Origin: Lewinellaceae bacterium
GTDB lineage: Bacteria; Bacteroidota; Bacteroidia; Chitinophagales; Saprospiraceae
Length of the DNA: 32,615 nt
Direction of reading: 5' to 3'
Assembly (NCBI GenBank): GCA_947459655.1
Contig: CANHEE010000022.1
Coordinates: 1 to 32,615, forward strand
Below, piece after piece: positions 4,348-14,314 of this stretch; the first letter of the stretch is position 1; each line of letters begins with the position of its first letter. The position numbers and the translations under genes are program-made. The notes beneath the pieces were generated by a model. The model was not told where the DNA came from, made no database searches, and was given only the letters and a program-made list of their open reading frames with translations.

Positions 4348-4701
4348 ATGAAAATCTTAGTAGTATTTACTGTGCTATTGCTCGTTTTTTCATCATGTCT
4401 GTACAAGAATGAAGAGGACATTACAGGAATTTGTGACACATCAGCCGTGAAGTATAGCACTGATATAGTGAGGATTATGGACGAAAACTGCAATGGTTGC
4501 CATTCAACTGATCAACATCAGGGTAAAGTAATTTTGGATACTTATGCCCAAACCGTTGTTCATGTCAAGAACGGCAAGTTGATGGGTTCTATTCTCCATA
4601 AATCAGGTTATGATGCAATGCCGAAAAATGCAGCAAAGCTGGATAATTGTTCGATTGCCACACTAAATGCGTGGATTAAGGCAGGTTATCCGAACAATTA
4701 A
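4348..4701 (+). CDS. Small lipoprotein with a c-type haem motif
   Basis: This is a 117-residue predicted envelope lipoprotein. A signal sequence ends in a lipobox with Cys17 (VFSSC). A single CNGCH (48-52) is a canonical c-type haem attachment motif, and Met91 in AMPKN is a candidate sixth ligand. The layout (haem near the N-terminus, then a stretch ending LNAWIKAGYP) recalls the small cytochrome domain found in planctomycete-type cytochromes and many Bacteroidota lipoproteins. The residues after Cys17 (LYKNEED) are acidic, reminiscent of surface-export signals in this phylum, but that is inference. It is the first gene of a four-gene cluster with OB-fold, YceI and DUF5777 proteins. The electron partner is unknown. 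Confidence 0.75.
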   Translation: MKILVVFTVLLLVFSSCLYKNEEDITGICDTSAVKYSTDIVRIMDENCNGCHSTDQHQGKVILDTYAQTVVHVKNGKLMGSILHKSGYDAMPKNAAKLDNCSIATLNAWIKAGYPNN

Positions 4702-4737
4702 TGGTATCAATAAAATGTTAATTCATAAAGTTTACTG

Positions 4738-5157
4738 ATGATGAAAGCAAAGAAGGTATTGATTGTTCTGGCAATTTTAGGAATTGCAGGAGCCGTTTAT
4801 GTGGCCTACGAGTGGAATAGGAAAAACCCAAGTATGGCGACTGCAAAAGAGGACTTGAGCATAGACGCTAAAGCTTTATATGAAGAATTTGCCCTGAATG
4901 AATCTGCCGCAAGTATCAAATATATTGATAAGGTGATTTTGGTTCGTGGAGTTGTCTCATCAGTCGATAAGAGCAATGGGCAAGTTGCGATAATGTTGGA
5001 CACAGGTGATCCACTTGGTGCCGTGATGTGTCAACTTGACCCTGAAATCAGTCAGAATAGTGAAGAATTCAAAGAAGGAGATCAAGTCAAATTTAAAGGC
5101 ACCTGCAGTGGTTTTATGACTGATGTTCAGATTTCAAGGTGTGCAGTAGTCAGGTGA
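4738..5157 (+). CDS. Membrane-anchored OB-fold protein (tRNA_anti-like)
   Basis: This 139-residue protein has an N-terminal hydrophobic segment at about residues 6-25, probably a membrane anchor or uncleaved signal. The rest resembles the tRNA_anti-like OB-fold family (a small envelope OB domain, despite the name), with the pattern KVILVRGVVSSVD, then VAIMLDTGD, then EGDQVKFKGTCSGF. Two Cys (near residues 117 and 135) could pair. No catalytic residues are evident. It lies 36 bp after the haem lipoprotein and 83 bp before yceI, so co-transcription is likely. The role is unknown; similar OB-fold proteins usually bind ligands or stabilise partners. Confidence 0.65.
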   Translation: MMKAKKVLIVLAILGIAGAVYVAYEWNRKNPSMATAKEDLSIDAKALYEEFALNESAASIKYIDKVILVRGVVSSVDKSNGQVAIMLDTGDPLGAVMCQLDPEISQNSEEFKEGDQVKFKGTCSGFMTDVQISRCAVVR

Positions 5158-5240
5158 TAATGGGTGGCAGCTAAATTTATATTCAAATTAGCCGACTCTC
5201 ATCATCAAGTATCAATCATTTTAACTTACAACAGATTTAT

Positions 5241-5792
5241 ATGAAAAAGTTGCTTTTTACGCTGCTGATGAGTGGCGCCTTTTTCTCGCTTCAGGCTCAA
5301 AAATATTTTACCAAAACAGGAAATATTTCTTTCAGCGCTACTTCGTCTATCGAAGCCATTGAGGCCAGTACCCGTACTGCTTCTTGCGTAGTCGATGCTG
5401 CGACAGGTAATATTGAATTCGCGGTGCTCATCAAAACGTTTCAGTTTGAAAAGGCACTGATGCAGGAGCATTTTAATGAGAACTATATGGAATCCGATAA
5501 GTATCCTAAGGGGTCATTCAAAGGCAAAATAGATAACATCAGGGACATTAAGTTCAATAAAGATGGATCCTATAAGGCAAAAGTCAGTGGAGTATTAGAG
5601 ATTCATGGTGTTTCAAAGCCAGTCTCAACAACTGCCGATTTTACGATTGGAGGTGGTAAAATTAAGGCAAACGCCAACTTCTCAGTTGCTTTGGCCGATT
5701 ACAACATCAAAATTCCCGGAGCCGTATCAGATAAAATTTCGAAATCTGCCAAAATCAGTGTAGTTGCTGACTTTCAGGAATTAAAAAAATAA
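5241..5792 (+). CDS. YceI-family periplasmic lipid-binding protein
   Basis: This 183-residue protein has a signal peptide ending SLQAQ (about residue 19-20). The mature part matches YceI: an N-terminal TGNISFSATSSIEAIEAS strand pair, then MESDKYPKGSFKGKI, VSGVLEIHGVSKPV and a C-terminal VSDKISKSAKISV. YceI proteins form a lipocalin-like beta-barrel that binds polyisoprenoids or quinone-like lipids in the periplasm. The gap to the next gene is only 12 bp. With a haem protein and a barrel as neighbours, a role with redox-active lipid is possible but not shown. Confidence 0.85.
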   Translation: MKKLLFTLLMSGAFFSLQAQKYFTKTGNISFSATSSIEAIEASTRTASCVVDAATGNIEFAVLIKTFQFEKALMQEHFNENYMESDKYPKGSFKGKIDNIRDIKFNKDGSYKAKVSGVLEIHGVSKPVSTTADFTIGGGKIKANANFSVALADYNIKIPGAVSDKISKSAKISVVADFQELKK

Positions 5793-5804
5793 AAACAAAT
5801 ACGC

Positions 5805-6686
5805 ATGAAACCAATTTTAACGATTCTTTCTGTTTTGTTGTGTTTTCCGTTGTTTGGTCAGGATGATATGTTGTCCTTGCTGGGTGAAGAGAAAACGTCA
5901 GATTTTGCGACCGCAGCTTTTAAAACCAACCGGGTCATCAATGGCCATTCCATTGAGAATACAGCCAAAGGAGTAATGGATTTCAAAATCAACCACCGAT
6001 TCGGTACTGTAAATGGTGGAGTGTATGAACTCTTTGGAATTGACCAGGCCTATGTGCGTTTTGGATTTGATTATGGAATTACTGATCGTTTGATGGTTGG
6101 TGTTGGCCGCAATAGTTATGAGAAAGTGTACGATGGCTTTGTAAAGTACAGGATTCTCAGACAGCAAACCGGAAAGCGAAACATTCCCCTAAGCATTAGT
6201 TATATGGGTAATATTGATTACAAGACTGTAGAGTGGAATAACCCGGTTTTTAGCGGTGATCCATGGCTGCGAACCTACTATACCCAGCAATTTTTGATAG
6301 CACGGAAGTTCAGCAGCTGGACCAGTGTTCAGATTATGCCGACGTGGGTGCATAGAAATCTGACAGCAACCAAGGCAGAGAAAAATGATATATTCCTGAT
6401 TGGAATTGCTGCAAGACAAAAAATAAGCAACAGAATTGCGATCAATGCGGAATATACTTATGCCTTTCCAAATCAGCTTGCATTGGACATTGTTCCTACA
6501 TTGTCGCTTGGTGTAGATATTGAAACGGGTGGTCACGTCTTTCAGTTGATGCTGACCAACTCCAATGGCACCGACCACAGAAGTTTTCTTACCGAGGCAA
6601 ACCAGAAATGGCGAGATGGAGGCATCAGATTTGGTTTTAATGTTTCTCGGGTATTTACCATAGTCAAACCCAAACCGATGCTTTGA
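5805..6686 (+). CDS. DUF5777-like outer-membrane beta-barrel protein
   Basis: This 293-residue protein has a signal peptide ending PLFGQ. The remainder alternates hydrophobic and polar residues with aromatic girdles, as in outer-membrane barrels, and ends in a beta strand rich in Phe and Val. ENTAKGVMDFKINHRFG near the start, then VYELFGIDQAYVRFGFDYG, is the pattern I associate with DUF5777 proteins of Bacteroidota. It is the last gene of the 4348-6686 cluster, followed at once by a strong terminator. I cannot name a substrate; a porin-like or scaffolding role for the upstream lipoprotein and YceI is inference. Confidence 0.7.
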   Translation: MKPILTILSVLLCFPLFGQDDMLSLLGEEKTSDFATAAFKTNRVINGHSIENTAKGVMDFKINHRFGTVNGGVYELFGIDQAYVRFGFDYGITDRLMVGVGRNSYEKVYDGFVKYRILRQQTGKRNIPLSISYMGNIDYKTVEWNNPVFSGDPWLRTYYTQQFLIARKFSSWTSVQIMPTWVHRNLTATKAEKNDIFLIGIAARQKISNRIAINAEYTYAFPNQLALDIVPTLSLGVDIETGGHVFQLMLTNSNGTDHRSFLTEANQKWRDGGIRFGFNVSRVFTIVKPKPML

Positions 6687-6700
6687 TTCAGAAAAAATTT

Positions 6701-6742
6701 AAAATGACGAAAACGGCTCCTGCTGTTTTCGTCATTTTTTTT
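6701..6742 (+). terminator. Strong Rho-independent terminator after the envelope cluster
   Basis: A 14-bp perfect stem (AAAATGACGAAAAC at 6701-6714 with GTTTTCGTCATTTT at 6725-6738) has a 10-nt loop and a run of T to 6742. It begins 15 nt after the DUF5777 stop and separates it from the next lipoprotein unit. Confidence 0.9.
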
Positions 6743-6841: not shown

Positions 6842-8377
6842 ATGAAAAGAAATATATTGCTTTTACTGCTTGTAGCACTGCTCGCACTCCAGGGATGCAA
6901 AATTCAGGAGGACCTCAACGACCTTAAAGATGCGTACGGCCCTGAGTTGGCATTGCCGTTATTTCATAGTAAGTTCACGATGCCCGACATTGTGGGTTCA
7001 AGAAATGCCTCTACCCTAATAATTGCTCCTGATGGCAATATGAACCTTTTCTACAAGAGCAATTTTACGGAAAGAAAAGCCAGCGATATCCTCAAGATTT
7101 TTGGTAATTCCATTATTCCCCTCAATTTTCAGGATTCCGTAACCTATTCCAGGGCATTGTATTCTCAGGAAATGGTCATACAGAAAATTGACTATAAAAA
7201 GGGAACAACACTTGGAATGGGAGTCCAGCTTCTGACACCAAACATTACTGACCCGATTAACCTCAAGATTTGGATTCCGACCCTAGTCAAAGCCGGAAAA
7301 CCATTCGAATTATCATATACTGGTGCGATTCCGACTTCCAGTTTTTTACCGCTCACCGTAGGAGTTGACCTTTTTGGTTACAGACTGACACCTTTCCCTG
7401 CCAATTCGGATTCTATACAACTTCGTTACAGGGCATACACTACAAAGGGTGTTCCTGTAAAAATCAGTGTTCTTGGAGCAGTTGCTAATCCTGCCTTTGA
7501 TTATGTCGAGGGATTTATGTCAAAGCGTGATATTCAGATTGACAATGGTCAGGTGGATGTTTCCATCTACAACCAGATTGTCAAAGGAGATTTGAAGTTC
7601 TCAGATCCCAAAATATCGGTACTGGTTGAAAACTCCTACGGCTATCCGATGCGGACAAAAGTAAATCTGGTGAAGGCAATCTCCAAAAGGGGAGATACCA
7701 TCGCGTTGGTCGCCAGCAATCTGATCAATGACGGATTTGATTTTCCCTACCCGACATTGAACGAAGTAGGGGTTACAAAAAAAATGCGTTTTGATTTTAC
7801 CAATGCCAATTCCAACATAAAAGAATTGCTGAATGCGGGTCCGAATACCATTTTGTACAGTATTGATGCTGTTGCAAACCCTCTGGGCCTGAAGGCCAAT
7901 GGTTTCATGACAGATTCGACGACGCTTCGGATTGGGTTGGAAGTAAATATTCCATTGCTGGGTTCAGCATCCAATTTTCAGGGCAGCGACACAATACGTA
8001 ACATCAATCTAAAAGATTTGGAAAATGTTGAATCCGCAGAGTTTAAATTTGTATCGGACAATGAACTCCCTGTCGGAATAATGTTGGAAGGCATTTTTTT
8101 GGATGGTAACGGGCAGGTACTGGACAAGCTTACCGATTTGCCTTTCAAGCTGGTAGAATCAGCAAAGGTTAACATTACGGGTGACGTCATTGAGTCCACT
8201 CACAACGAGACTTTCATTCCGGTGTCTGCGGATAAATTTTCGCGAATCAAGGAGGCAAAACAGCTGATTCTTGCGGGGAGTTTTTCCACATATGATCAGG
8301 GGAAACGAGAGGTGCGCATTTTATCGACTCAGCAGGTTAACCTTAGGTGTGGTTTGAAAATTATTCCTAAAATTTAA
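6842..8377 (+). CDS. Large lipoprotein of unknown function
   Basis: I do not recognise a named family for this 511-residue protein. A poly-Leu signal ends in the lipobox ALQGC (Cys19), so it should be an outer-membrane lipoprotein. The rest is beta-rich with no Cys until near the end, no enzyme motif, and repeated stretches of the type 'hydrophobic strand - Asn/Asp turn - strand', suggesting beta-sandwich domains. I chose the ATG at 6842 because it alone gives a good signal peptide and lies at a normal distance from the -7 element at 6775. It is followed 50 bp later by a DUF5723-like barrel, an arrangement consistent with a lipoprotein/barrel pair. The function is unknown. Confidence 0.7.
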   Translation: MKRNILLLLLVALLALQGCKIQEDLNDLKDAYGPELALPLFHSKFTMPDIVGSRNASTLIIAPDGNMNLFYKSNFTERKASDILKIFGNSIIPLNFQDSVTYSRALYSQEMVIQKIDYKKGTTLGMGVQLLTPNITDPINLKIWIPTLVKAGKPFELSYTGAIPTSSFLPLTVGVDLFGYRLTPFPANSDSIQLRYRAYTTKGVPVKISVLGAVANPAFDYVEGFMSKRDIQIDNGQVDVSIYNQIVKGDLKFSDPKISVLVENSYGYPMRTKVNLVKAISKRGDTIALVASNLINDGFDFPYPTLNEVGVTKKMRFDFTNANSNIKELLNAGPNTILYSIDAVANPLGLKANGFMTDSTTLRIGLEVNIPLLGSASNFQGSDTIRNINLKDLENVESAEFKFVSDNELPVGIMLEGIFLDGNGQVLDKLTDLPFKLVESAKVNITGDVIESTHNETFIPVSADKFSRIKEAKQLILAGSFSTYDQGKREVRILSTQQVNLRCGLKIIPKI

Positions 8378-8427: not shown

Positions 8428-9699
8428 ATGAAAAAAATACTGATATTTTTATCGCTGTTCTCCGCTAAAGCAGCACTCGCACAATTAAATCTTGCAGCTG
8501 CAGGCATGCCTTTTCTGCAGCAACAATCTTCGCTGAATCCTTCATTTATTCCAACGCACCGTTTTGTAATCGGAGGCGATGTTGAAGCCGGTGCATACAA
8601 TTCTTTCAGGGGCTTGAAAGTTGTGAATTCAAAGATTTATGCGGGACACTCTGCAGATCCCTCTGTTCTTTACACGCGACTAAACTGTAACCTGCTGAAT
8701 GCGGGTTTGCGCATTGGTAAAAAATCCTACCTCACTTTTTCGGAGTCTGTCAGACAGTTGAATTTCGGAAGTTTGTCTTCAGATGGATTGGGAATGCTGC
8801 TTCATGGCAATGCCCCATATATCGGACAAACGGTGAACGCAAATCCCAACATTCAAAGCCTTTTTTACAATGAACTTAGTCTGGGATTTGCACAAAAAAT
8901 TGGAAAACTGCAGCTGGGCGTTCGAGGTAAAATGTGGAACGGTGTTGGAGCCATTTCCACGGGTGCAGACCAAAAGTTGTCGGTCCTAACGGAAAAAGAT
9001 GCTTACCAGCTGACACTCAACTCCGATTATAGTATTTATGCAGCCCCGTCGGTAGACGTTGATGGTCTGCTTAACGGCGGATTTGCACTCTCAGGTCTAA
9101 AGCCGGACAGCAAAGGGTGGGGGGTTGATTTGGGTGCCAGATTTGAATTCAACGACAAGTTTAGTGTTAGTGCAAGTATGATTGATCTGGGCAGCATACA
9201 ATGGGTTGGAAGAAAGAATACAAGCAAAGGCACCGTCAGGTATGAGGGCTTTGATGCAACGAAAGCTTTTACAGATAGGGGAGATCTGACATTCGGCGTT
9301 AATCTTGATACATTGGTTGACCAATTGAAATTTAGATCTACAGATGGTGTCGGTTTCACCACCACATTGCCGCAAACCTTTCTGGTCAGCGGTACCTACC
9401 GGTTTGGTGATAAATTGACCGCAACATGCCTATATTCAGGTACATCCTATCAAAAGACGAGCATGAACACAATTATGATAAACGGACAATATCAGGCATT
9501 GGGTTTCCTGAATTTGGGACTGAGCTACAGTCTCAGAGATGCAACAAGCTTGCTAGGTGCAAATTTGACACTTGGCAGCAGAACTGTTCAGGCATTCGTT
9601 ATGACGGATAATCTTCCAGGGTTTTTCAGGCCGGTAAGAACGTCAATACTGAATGTAAGAATGGGTTTGAACCTTCGCTTTGGAAGAATGAATAAGTAG
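8428..9699 (+). CDS. DUF5723-like outer-membrane barrel protein
   Basis: This 423-residue protein has a signal peptide (KAALAQ, cleavage near residue 18-19). The mature start, FLQQQSSLNPSFIP, matches the 'QSS-NPAF-P' opening of DUF5723 and related PorV/FadL-like Bacteroidota barrels. Later segments such as WGVDLGARFEFNDKFSVSAS and the alternating strands up to MGLNLRFGRMNK are typical of a large transmembrane beta-barrel. It is second in a unit with the lipoprotein at 6842. The family has no established function, and transport of a hydrophobic ligand or surface assembly is only inference. The DUF number is from memory of the motif and is moderately secure. Confidence 0.65.
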   Translation: MKKILIFLSLFSAKAALAQLNLAAAGMPFLQQQSSLNPSFIPTHRFVIGGDVEAGAYNSFRGLKVVNSKIYAGHSADPSVLYTRLNCNLLNAGLRIGKKSYLTFSESVRQLNFGSLSSDGLGMLLHGNAPYIGQTVNANPNIQSLFYNELSLGFAQKIGKLQLGVRGKMWNGVGAISTGADQKLSVLTEKDAYQLTLNSDYSIYAAPSVDVDGLLNGGFALSGLKPDSKGWGVDLGARFEFNDKFSVSASMIDLGSIQWVGRKNTSKGTVRYEGFDATKAFTDRGDLTFGVNLDTLVDQLKFRSTDGVGFTTTLPQTFLVSGTYRFGDKLTATCLYSGTSYQKTSMNTIMINGQYQALGFLNLGLSYSLRDATSLLGANLTLGSRTVQAFVMTDNLPGFFRPVRTSILNVRMGLNLRFGRMNK

Positions 9700-11476: not shown

Positions 11477-14314
11477 TCAACGAAACAGCTGAATGAATCC
11501 GCTAAGTGCTTCCTTTCGCTTAACCTTTCCTTCTACCCTTTGCTCGTAAACAATGCACTGGTAGTAGTAAACGCCTTCGGCCAGATCTTCTCCATTTAGA
11601 TTTTTGCCGTCCCAGTTAAGATGGGGATCAGTCGTAGCAAATACCAACCCTCCCCACCTGTTAAATACCTTGAAGTCTACTTCTGCAATAAACCTCAACG
11701 TAGGAAAAGGTCTGAAAAGATCGTTTCGGTTATCGCCATTTGGCGTAAAGGTGTTGGGAAGTTCAAAAACAGGGCAGTTGTCAACACATACTATGTTCCC
11801 AGGGGCACTGGCGTTTTTTAGGCTGTCAAAAGCTGTAAGGTAATAACAGCCCGCAAGGCTTTTTAATGGTCCGTGCACGTATGATGTATCATTTTGCAGG
11901 TTGATTTCTGCGAGTAAATCAAATTGGCCGCCACTCAAATTGCTGAAATAAATGCGGTATCCGGCTGCATCCTTGCCTGTAAGGCAGGTTTTACTGATGT
12001 CTCGCCAGTTCAGATAATTGACTGATGTATCTGTCGCTGCTACCATCGCATCGTTGCAAATATTTGTGACGGTCAATTGTGGAGGACAAGGAGGAATGTT
12101 GTCGACCGGGACGGCGCACACTTCCTGTGAGCGGTTCACTAGCGGTGAACGTATACCGCCGATGGAGTAAGCTCCAAAACTCTTGATAAGGTAGCAATAG
12201 TTCTGCCCGTTGATCAATCCCTCATCCCGGTAGTTTCTGTTGATGGTTGTCGCGATAGAATCGTAGCTGCCGGTGCCGTTGTTTTTTCTGAGCACCACGT
12301 ATTTGATATTTGCCCAGGGTGTTTTCTCTGACCAGCTTAAAATGTTGGTTTGATCAGTTGAAATTATATTTAAGAGGATAGCACTTGCCACAGGTGACGT
12401 TCCCAGCGGGATGGTCTGATCATTGACATAAAAAACGAGCTTGTAAAAGTGTTTTTCTCCCGTCCTGAGCATTTTGTGCTCGAAAGTAGTGTCGGTAGTA
12501 CTGTTAAAATTCGATGCCACCACAGTGAAAACAGGAGTAAACGGACCACTCTCATTTGCTGAATGTACCAGTTCATATCGGTAGGGGCCTCGGTTCAGCA
12601 TTGTGTCAAGATCTGCTGCACTGGGTTTGTTCCAAACTATTTTTATTGTACCGTCTGTCGTGCCTGTTTTTATAACGTCAACCTGTAATGGCAGTGGAAT
12701 ATCGCGGTTGAGCTGGATACAGACTTCACCGGAAGCCAGTCCCTCTACCAGATTGTACGGCACTGATGAACTGGTCAGTCTGGCAAATTCTGCCTGTACT
12801 CTGTAGCAATAGCTGATACCTCTTTCTGCTGTTGCATCTGTAAATTCGTAACGGTTGTTGATATTTTGTTTCCACTTGAACGCGAGTCGGGTGTAACCCT
12901 TTCCTTTTAGTCCGGGATTGCAGGTATCCGGTTGGATGTTGCTGCTGTTTTCTTTTCTCCATATAGAGAAACCATAAAAGTAATTTTCTGCTACGGCATC
13001 GCATTCATAGGGTTTTTCCCAGTTCAAATCAATCTTACTTTGGCCGGTGCTGATCTTCAAATTTTTGGGCGCAGGTGCAACGATTTTTATCCTTATGGTT
13101 TTTAGGGTAGCGAGGCCGGTGGTGTCACTGAGAAAATTGTCCACGGCTTTGAATACGACATTGTAATATTGATTGGAAATGTGCTCACAGGTAGTCTGCC
13201 ATCTGAAGGTGCCGCTGACCGGATCATTTTGATATCCGCTTGGTGCTGTGAAAGTTGCAGGGCTATAACGGGTCTGTAGAGGTCCGCCCAGTGCCGTGAG
13301 TGCCACCTTTTGTTGCTTTGGACTGTCATCTGGATCTGAAGCGGTCACTTTAATTTCTACAAGTGTACCTGCGATTACACATATGTCCTGTCCACCCGCT
13401 ATCTGTGGAGGATCATTTTTGCAGTTGTCGCGAATTTCAATCTGCATATCCCTTATCAATGTGTCAATGGGCACACCCTGCCGGAATTCTACAACCATGA
13501 TGGTGATGTTGTATTCCCCGGCTTTTTGCGGGGCATTCCATACCAGTTCACCTGTTTTCTCATTCAGTGTCAAGATATTGTTCCCCATGCCGCCGCCAAT
13601 CCGGTTGGGATAGACATAATTGGGAACCCTTACTCCCGGTGCGGCTCGCGGCTCGGTAAGCTGATAGTATAAACTGTCCCCATCGACATCGTAGGCGTTG
13701 GGATTGTGTATGAATATTTCTCCCACACATCCGAAATCTATGGGTGGTTGCAGCAGAATTGGTGTGCTGTTTACACCCTGGAACTGCTGGCTCAGGAAGG
13801 TGAAGGTGGTGGAAAGGCTGAATTGTACACTATCAGAAAAGGGTGCATTGATGTTAAGGATTCCAGCATTCCTGTTGGGGTCGGTCATGGTGACCACATA
13901 GAATGGGGCAAAGCCGCTGTAGGTGTGTTCCCCTTTGTAGATGTTTTTTTTGATATCGTTCTGCAGTTCCTCCCCTTTGTGAAATCCATCTTTGTCCTTT
14001 GGTCCGTTCATCCGCACAAGAGTGGTTTTGGTTCCGTCACCCCAGTCAATGGTTAGGGAGTCACGGTCGGCTGAAAAACTGGAGGTCTGGGTATAGGTAA
14101 TAATGGTTGCCTCTATAGACAGAGGACCAATCTGCTTGATCAATATTTCTCCGGCCCTGTTGTGTGTGGCAGAGGCAAAAAATGGGTATGTCAGCATCAG
14201 TACCAATAAAGCACCTGGTTTCACTTTTTTTCCAATAGCAATGAATATTACCATGGCCACTGAAGAAAAACCAAAAATACGAGGGGAGCTAATACCTTTT
14301 TTTAGAGCATTCAT
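11477..14314 (-). CDS. Large secreted protein with gliding-motility-associated C-terminal (CHU_C) domain
   Basis: This is a 945-residue surface or secreted protein. The mature part starts near ATHNRAGEI (residues 49-57), preceded by a hydrophobic signal; a second hydrophobic stretch lies upstream (residues about 14-29), so the true start may be the internal ATG at 14254. Residues about 50-410 are immunoglobulin-like beta domains with DGDSLYYQLTEP and SDPDD repeats. Residues about 410-840 contain several fibronectin III-like modules (KNLKISTGQSKIDLNWEKP, YCYRVQAEF). The last ~93 residues, from PNTFTPNGDNRNDLF through FNRWGGLVF and WDGKNLNGEDLAEGVYYYQC, are a CHU_C type B sorting domain for type IX secretion. 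No enzyme motif is seen, so adhesion is the likely role. It lies downstream of panD on the same strand. Confidence 0.88.
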   Translation of the reverse strand: MNALKKGISSPRIFGFSSVAMVIFIAIGKKVKPGALLVLMLTYPFFASATHNRAGEILIKQIGPLSIEATIITYTQTSSFSADRDSLTIDWGDGTKTTLVRMNGPKDKDGFHKGEELQNDIKKNIYKGEHTYSGFAPFYVVTMTDPNRNAGILNINAPFSDSVQFSLSTTFTFLSQQFQGVNSTPILLQPPIDFGCVGEIFIHNPNAYDVDGDSLYYQLTEPRAAPGVRVPNYVYPNRIGGGMGNNILTLNEKTGELVWNAPQKAGEYNITIMVVEFRQGVPIDTLIRDMQIEIRDNCKNDPPQIAGGQDICVIAGTLVEIKVTASDPDDSPKQQKVALTALGGPLQTRYSPATFTAPSGYQNDPVSGTFRWQTTCEHISNQYYNVVFKAVDNFLSDTTGLATLKTIRIKIVAPAPKNLKISTGQSKIDLNWEKPYECDAVAENYFYGFSIWRKENSSNIQPDTCNPGLKGKGYTRLAFKWKQNINNRYEFTDATAERGISYCYRVQAEFARLTSSSVPYNLVEGLASGEVCIQLNRDIPLPLQVDVIKTGTTDGTIKIVWNKPSAADLDTMLNRGPYRYELVHSANESGPFTPVFTVVASNFNSTTDTTFEHKMLRTGEKHFYKLVFYVNDQTIPLGTSPVASAILLNIISTDQTNILSWSEKTPWANIKYVVLRKNNGTGSYDSIATTINRNYRDEGLINGQNYCYLIKSFGAYSIGGIRSPLVNRSQEVCAVPVDNIPPCPPQLTVTNICNDAMVAATDTSVNYLNWRDISKTCLTGKDAAGYRIYFSNLSGGQFDLLAEINLQNDTSYVHGPLKSLAGCYYLTAFDSLKNASAPGNIVCVDNCPVFELPNTFTPNGDNRNDLFRPFPTLRFIAEVDFKVFNRWGGLVFATTDPHLNWDGKNLNGEDLAEGVYYYQCIVYEQRVEGKVKRKEALSGFIQLFR

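Follow-up and report, generated by a model that had tools for sequence, protein, structure and literature searches.

The haem lipoprotein and DUF5777 barrel of Bacteroidota: a probable envelope redox module

What do a small haem lipoprotein, an OB-fold protein, a YceI lipocalin and an outer-membrane β-barrel do together in one operon? The question is raised by positions 4348–6686 of a 32,615-nucleotide stretch of DNA from a Lewinellaceae bacterium (GenBank assembly GCA_947459655.1, contig CANHEE010000022.1, positions 1 to 32,615; hereafter the window), where four intact open reading frames (ORFs), all open, follow one another on the + strand. A sequence-only reading had described four closely spaced genes forming a possible redox or lipid-handling module; the spacing is indeed close (gaps of 36, 83 and 12 bases, 5' to 3') and the cluster is a conserved operon. 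It is probably the clade-specific form of an envelope redox module that occurs throughout the phylum, the core of which is the haem lipoprotein and the barrel, usually accompanied by YceI; the four-gene form is that of a single clade.

The component families were already known, and it is their combination that is new among outer-membrane modules of cytochromes and barrels. In the literature searched, which excludes most subscription journals, no description of the haem lipoprotein, YceI and barrel combination was found, nor any mention of DUF5777. Many Bacteroidota from the environment would, if this pair does move electrons at the outer membrane, possess an overlooked envelope redox route, one that searches for multihaem cytochromes miss because each protein has one or two haem sites, often of the form CX4CH. 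The linkage also offers a concrete handle on the role of YceI lipocalins.

Linkage and co-divergence of the haem lipoprotein and the barrel

Gene neighbourhoods were compared around DUF5777 matches in three partly overlapping sets, which pool to 238 barrels (two loci, L140 and L049, are probably one contig). The broadest set comprised 198 genomes spread across the phylum Bacteroidota together with 14 control genomes; the barrel was present in 77 of the former and in none of the latter. From 102 barrel matches 97 were retrieved, and 94 of the 97 had enough flanking sequence to be counted. Left out were the window itself, two matches in G028, one in G055 and a truncated copy, although G055 and one of the G028 copies are covered by the family and order set below. 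A haem-lipoprotein gene was found in 77 of these 94 loci and a YceI gene in 76, with both on the same strand in 63; the OB-fold gene was found in 19 and all three partners in 15. The haem-family ('cyt') profile used was iterated at E 0.01 and also picks up some larger cytochromes; among the 77 loci with a haem gene, a C-x2-5-CH motif followed by Met-Pro was present in 75 and the ORF was short in 69.

The second set was the window genome together with others from the same family and order, 60 genomes in all, of which 54 encode the barrel. Its loci were picked from barrel matches, and the 52 of 60 with enough flank included 45 with the haem lipoprotein close by on the same strand, 26 with YceI and 15 with the OB-fold gene. 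The third set contained the best 80 of at least 582 confirmed loci, ranked by similarity to the barrel alignment, and is biased to near relatives because the most similar loci were chosen; it covers groups of Bacteroidota such as Saprospiraceae, Chitinophagaceae, Flavobacteriales and Bacteroidales. After the exclusion of 18 loci with short flanks, the haem lipoprotein was found in all 62 that were left, the OB-fold gene in 53, YceI in 51 and all three in 48, and two haem-family genes were present in 49. The expectation that the four genes stay together in relatives therefore holds among near relatives (48/62) and fails across the phylum (15/94). The four-gene set was rejected as the unit, since the OB-fold gene and the full set of partners are so rare in the phylum sample: the module is conserved, with a smaller core than had been thought, and the OB-fold protein, previously counted as a member, is a membrane-anchored accessory outside that core.

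Locus architecture follows the barrel tree. In a FastTree phylogeny of the barrels, 35 architecture changes were counted against a shuffled mean of 76.5, and none of 200 shuffles was as low. The window belongs to a group of 23 rows, and the YceI-plus-OB type accounts for 21 of them, including two without the haem gene. Furthermore, the haem protein and the barrel co-diverge. In 13 phylum-sample genomes with two or three retrieved copies having the haem gene, the two proteins paired alike between genomes in 74 of 102 comparisons when no threshold was set, and in 39/41, 31/32 and 27/27 at rising margins, where weak-margin comparisons were dropped at each threshold and the genome pairs are not independent. 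Because copies were compared within genomes, species relatedness alone does not explain this agreement.

All 77 genomes with DUF5777 also encode a haem-copper oxidase, and DUF5777 occurs in none of the 10 genomes without the oxidase, a link with aerobic respiration that is confounded because nine of these ten belong to one family. The window genome has two matches to haem-copper oxidase and two to cytochrome c assembly proteins.

Conserved sites and predicted folds of the four proteins

The first protein, which had been read as a lipoprotein with a CNGCH motif, is predicted to be a class I cytochrome c lipoprotein. The alignment and the model together give a CxxCH motif within a cytochrome c domain, a downstream Met predicted to be the axial ligand, and a cytochrome c fold. 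In the window sequence and 55 homologues (this alignment and the di-haem alignment of 41 sequences described below are each part of a longer homologue list), the lipobox C17, C48, C51, H52, M91, P92, W109 and G113 are invariant, so that the Cys residues of the motif, on which the module idea had been staked, are fully conserved. The AlphaFold (AF2) model, with a mean predicted local distance difference test (pLDDT) score of 90.7, resembles class I cytochromes c, and its nearest solved folds are FoxE (Z 9.1, root-mean-square deviation 2.5, 83 residues) and PccH (Z 8.2, 82 residues, 27% identity; next chain 2.6). When the family profile was compared with the PDB, cytochrome c6 was matched at E 1.9e-5, with M91 aligned to its Met-Pro, followed by PccH at 1.3e-3 and FoxE at 0.034; the single sequence found nothing in the PDB and matched the cytochrome c families of Pfam only under their cut-offs.

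The haem site recurs in the short homologues with variation in spacing. In the phylum sample, 72 of these lie beside a barrel, with Met-Pro after CX2CH in 39 and after CX4CH in 31, and the other two have a haem motif without Met-Pro. The 49 of the family and order set include 44 with CX2CH or CX4CH and Met-Pro, two with CX5CH, one without Met-Pro and two without any haem motif; the corresponding 75 of the near relatives are divided into 70 with CX2CH or CX4CH and Met-Pro, three with CX3CH, one with CX5CH and one with none. At least three acidic residues follow the lipobox Cys in 45/74 near-relative, 14/44 family and order and 11/71 phylum-sample short homologues, against 9% of 53 background lipobox ORFs; such residues may be a surface-export signal.

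The second and third proteins proved to be of the families assigned to them at the outset. The OB-fold protein matches PF12869 (tRNA_anti-like OB; E 7.1e-20, 71.5 bits, curated cut-off 23.5) and has an N-terminal hydrophobic anchor. Its positions conserved in at least 90% of 46 sequences are C98, C123, one Lys and three Gly, and among solved structures it comes closest to a putative nucleic acid-binding lipoprotein (E 0.0025). A CcmE-like role as a haem chaperone was considered and rejected, as nothing suggested haem binding. The YceI protein matches PF04264 (E 9.2e-16, 59.0 bits, curated cut-off 23.7), and its PDB relatives are YceI or polyisoprenoid-binding proteins at E 0.0025 and weaker. 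By its sequence it is a divergent member of the family. Two further YceI genes are present in the window genome (G000:C129:3422-3925 and G000:C13:20271-20774), both of which outscore it on PF04264.

The fourth protein is, as had been proposed, an outer-membrane barrel: it matches PF19089 (E 3.7e-91, 305.2 bits, curated cut-off 23.1), and the AF2 model is confident (pLDDT 90.9, predicted template modelling score 0.83) and 12-stranded. Its structural matches are KdgM, FapF, NanC, COG4313 and other porins and channels, at Z 16–18; the DUF5777 profile found no relative by sequence among solved structures.

Table 1. Features of the operon in the window
Feature	Positions	Strand	Length	Basis or detail
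Mono-haem c lipoprotein, predicted class I (FoxE/PccH-like) domain	4348..4701	+	117 aa	
CNGCH haem c attachment motif, residues 48-52	4489..4503	+		Sequence and alignment
Met91, predicted axial haem ligand	4618..4620	+		Alignment
OB-fold protein PF12869, N-terminal hydrophobic anchor, accessory	4738..5157	+	139 aa	Pfam
YceI-family lipocalin, likely signal peptide	5241..5792	+	183 aa	Pfam
DUF5777 outer-membrane β-barrel, predicted 12 strands	5805..6686	+	293 aa	Pfam, AF2
Intrinsic terminator ending the operon	6701..6738	+		17-pair hairpin then T run

The features are collected in Table 1. The cluster had been described as closed by a terminator with a 14-bp stem; a strong one is present, lying just past the coordinates given for the cluster and having 17 pairs by our count, with a hairpin energy of −23.6 kcal/mol (z −6.7; none of 200 shuffles equally stable). 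In a Pfam scan, the products of the genes upstream of the operon were identified as a PfkB-type kinase and an endonuclease III-like HhH-GPD protein. Directly past the terminator stands a tandem of two envelope-protein-like genes, a lipoprotein-like one without a Pfam match (6842-8374) and a DUF5723 one (8428-9696). Sorting domains of the type IX secretion system (T9SS) occur in two large proteins encoded at 832-2430 and 11480-14314 (−), which have no further Pfam match under E 1e-4. An NCBIfam scan of the window genes gave matches that were absent or all under cut-off.

Partner genes and the proposed redox role

The best explanation of these data, to which we give about an even chance, is an electron-transfer module that is associated with the outer membrane and connected to the quinone pool via YceI or NrfD-type partners. 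At its core, a membrane-tethered mono-haem lipoprotein of FoxE/PccH-like type, often joined by a di-haem one, would act with the 12-strand DUF5777 barrel. The haem lipoproteins would bind haem, touch the barrel and carry electrons between the periplasmic quinone-linked respiratory chain and a substrate or partner that is accessible at the outer membrane or through it. The mobile redox or lipid cofactor carried by YceI would most likely be (mena)quinone or some related isoprenoid, and the OB-fold protein would serve as an accessory anchored in the membrane. YceI proteins have been found carrying ubiquinone-8 or similar isoprenoids (PMC9113575). The lipid-handling role offered in the sequence-only reading is not supported as stated; its redox idea gains support from sequence comparison, through the invariant Met and the genes beside the pair in relatives.

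Those genes are of several kinds. A gene with two haem motifs is present in 46 of the 62 near-relative loci; its product is typically a lipoprotein whose pattern, CX4CH-Met and CX2CH-Met, does not vary among 41 sequences, and its profile matches FoxE (E 1.6e-6). This partner is absent from the window genome, where a search with one such protein returned only the mono-haem gene. In a second form of the locus, near 22 of the 238 pooled barrels, the pair is accompanied by a di-haem protein of 340 residues with no family assignment; the order in L089:5522-7841 and similar loci is haem lipoprotein, DUF5777, di-haem protein, and L089 adjoins a divergent BrxA/BrxB bacilliredoxin gene. In a third form, eight phylum-sample loci from seven genomes (L238:1659-8357, L240, L242, L243, L247, L252 and, in part, L251 and L255) have the pair next to one or more of NrfD, 4Fe-4S, EB_dh and additional cytochromes: 4Fe-4S and NrfD-type genes are found in six, EB_dh in five, and a protein with six CxxCH motifs in one. 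NrfD and 4Fe-4S proteins are quinone-linked electron carriers. The third-form loci encode a candidate quinone-to-envelope electron-transfer complex, and of all the context evidence their NrfD/4Fe-4S neighbours speak most strongly for electron transfer; it is because of these, the di-haem and the EB_dh neighbours that a redox role is favoured.

T9SS-type proteins were also observed near some loci. In L060:7974-8810, a gene upstream of cytochrome, YceI and DUF5777 encodes a T9SS-sorted Reeler/choice-of-anchor V protein of about 280 residues with a CX4CH of its own, possibly an extracellular haem protein; genes of similar length occupy this place in L057, L062 and L069. In L112:44-3835, a T9SS-type protein of 1264 residues with plastocyanin-like copper domains and PKD repeats is encoded on the same strand, two genes upstream of the di-haem gene.

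The frequency of YceI beside the barrel (76 of 94 phylum-sample loci) also fits an antioxidant system, in which a YceI-bound isoprenoid quinone would quench lipid peroxyl radicals, the haem lipoproteins would re-reduce the quinone and the barrel would be an outer-membrane anchor or lipid port. These roles are analogous to those proposed for BcnA-LcoA, a pair of YceI protein and cytochrome b561 suggested to quench lipid peroxyl radicals, and the ubiquinone-8 (Ubi-8) seen in YceI barrels is a further precedent, although the available part of that account names no barrel (PMC9113575). A di-haem peroxidase family gene (CCP_MauG) stands beside the pair in L042 and bacilliredoxin-type genes occur in 14 pooled loci, divergent from the pair in L089. 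However, CCP_MauG homologues were found in only two of the pooled loci, and the core pair is also found without YceI, in the form with the 340-residue di-haem protein and in most NrfD-type forms. An antioxidant function is considered unlikely.

Several observations weigh against the electron-transfer module. Domains of FoxE/PccH type form a broad family (the di-haem profile matches hydrazine synthase as well), and in a Foldseek ranking of the haem-lipoprotein model PccH came first at E 0.097 only; for these two reasons, function cannot be transferred from FoxE or PccH. The pairing of YceI agreed between genomes in 12 of 21 cases without a threshold, which is uninformative. A barrel of 12 strands seems to leave too little room for a cytochrome, which makes a classical porin-cytochrome wire unlikely; a wire of that kind was rejected because the modelled barrel is 12-stranded and the cytochrome has one haem site. 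The fold matches of DUF5777 are generic barrels, nearly tied in Z, and thus inform on fold and not on function. Finally, 17 of the 94 phylum-sample loci have no close haem gene on the same strand (three with one on the opposite strand, 14 with one on neither strand in the neighbourhood covered), and L032, L035, L052 and L081 of the family and order set have no partner within 2.5 kb.

The 17 barrels without a same-strand haem neighbour, with the patchy OB-fold gene and the variable gene order, would suit loose neighbours, placed in one operon for the sake of general envelope expression and lacking a joint mechanism. Such a reading is very unlikely: the identical pair recurs in several differing contexts across the phylum, architecture tracks the barrel tree, and paralogues of haem protein and barrel co-diverge. 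The barrel folds, for their part, bring up a substrate channel with a redox enzyme, in which DUF5777 would be a specific pore of KdgM/NanC type and the haem lipoprotein would oxidize or reduce an imported small molecule. The best folds are sugar-acid porins, FapF and COG4313 channels, and regulators recur nearby, namely a β-propeller sensor near 32 and a LytTR regulator near 36 of the 238 pooled barrels (a β-propeller sensor kinase near 20/80 and a LytTR regulator near 36/80 near-relative loci). Against this stand the near-ties among generic folds and the finding that no catabolic enzyme family recurs among the 25 largest neighbour clusters of near relatives; a channel of this kind is judged quite improbable, less so than mere co-expression.

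A stronger version of the electron-transfer module may also be stated, namely an undescribed phylum-wide outer-membrane redox conduit in which FoxE/PccH-like lipoproteins would dock on the 12-strand barrel and be fed by quinone-YceI or NrfD/4Fe-4S partners, with electrons reaching or crossing the outer membrane. We regard it as doubtful, though slightly less so than the antioxidant system; if true, ordinary respiring Bacteroidota could take up or discharge electrons at their surface without multihaem wires.

Comparison with known systems

The fold of the window lipoprotein is like that of mono-haem PccH from Geobacter sulfurreducens (27% identity over 82 residues), a protein linked to current-consuming biofilms. 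It is also like that of the haem domain of FoxE, a putative iron oxidase of Rhodobacter ferrooxidans SW2 and the di-haem protein of the foxEYZ operon of phototrophic iron oxidation (PMC10654088). The di-haem partner resembles FoxE further: along the chain, its haem motifs and Met residues follow the same order, and it shares the W-I-x-x-G-A motif, the ligand layout being taken from the R. ferrireducens FoxE as given in the same source (PMC10654088). Unlike FoxE, the proteins here are lipoproteins, the mono-haem one has a single domain, and CX4CH is common. FoxE has FoxY and FoxZ beside it and no described barrel or YceI, whereas the window system has both of the latter; FoxY (a pyrroloquinoline quinone propeller) and FoxZ are not among the window neighbours, the rest of the genome not having been searched for them.

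As in MtrAB, PioAB, MtoAB and Cyc2, the last of which is called a fused porin-cytochrome in one account (PMC5566968), a cytochrome c is encoded here beside an outer-membrane barrel. The scale differs: in MtrAB and PioAB a multihaem cytochrome sits next to a large barrel or within it, whereas one haem motif and a 12-strand model were found in the window. The MtrB barrel has 28 strands (PMC5566968), and the MtrAB type has ten haems, whereas the present system has one or two haem sites per protein, on separate lipoproteins, and YceI is usual.

In BcnA-LcoA there is, as here, a genetic tie between a YceI lipocalin and a haem protein, for which a redox role has been proposed (PMC9113575). That pair uses cytochrome b561, whereas the haem partner here is a c-type lipoprotein and an outer-membrane barrel is added; no cytochrome b561 gene was found beside YceI among the window neighbours scanned. 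A parallel at the level of domains is Cbp2D of Cellvibrio japonicus, in which a YceI-like X158 domain and c-type cytochrome domains occur in one protein (PMC8981238, PMC12542752). A quinone-binding domain of YceI type is paired there with cytochrome c outside the cytoplasm, as would be the case here. Cbp2D is described as a single modular protein with a carbohydrate-binding module and without a barrel, whereas in Bacteroidota the components are separate proteins encoded together with a barrel.

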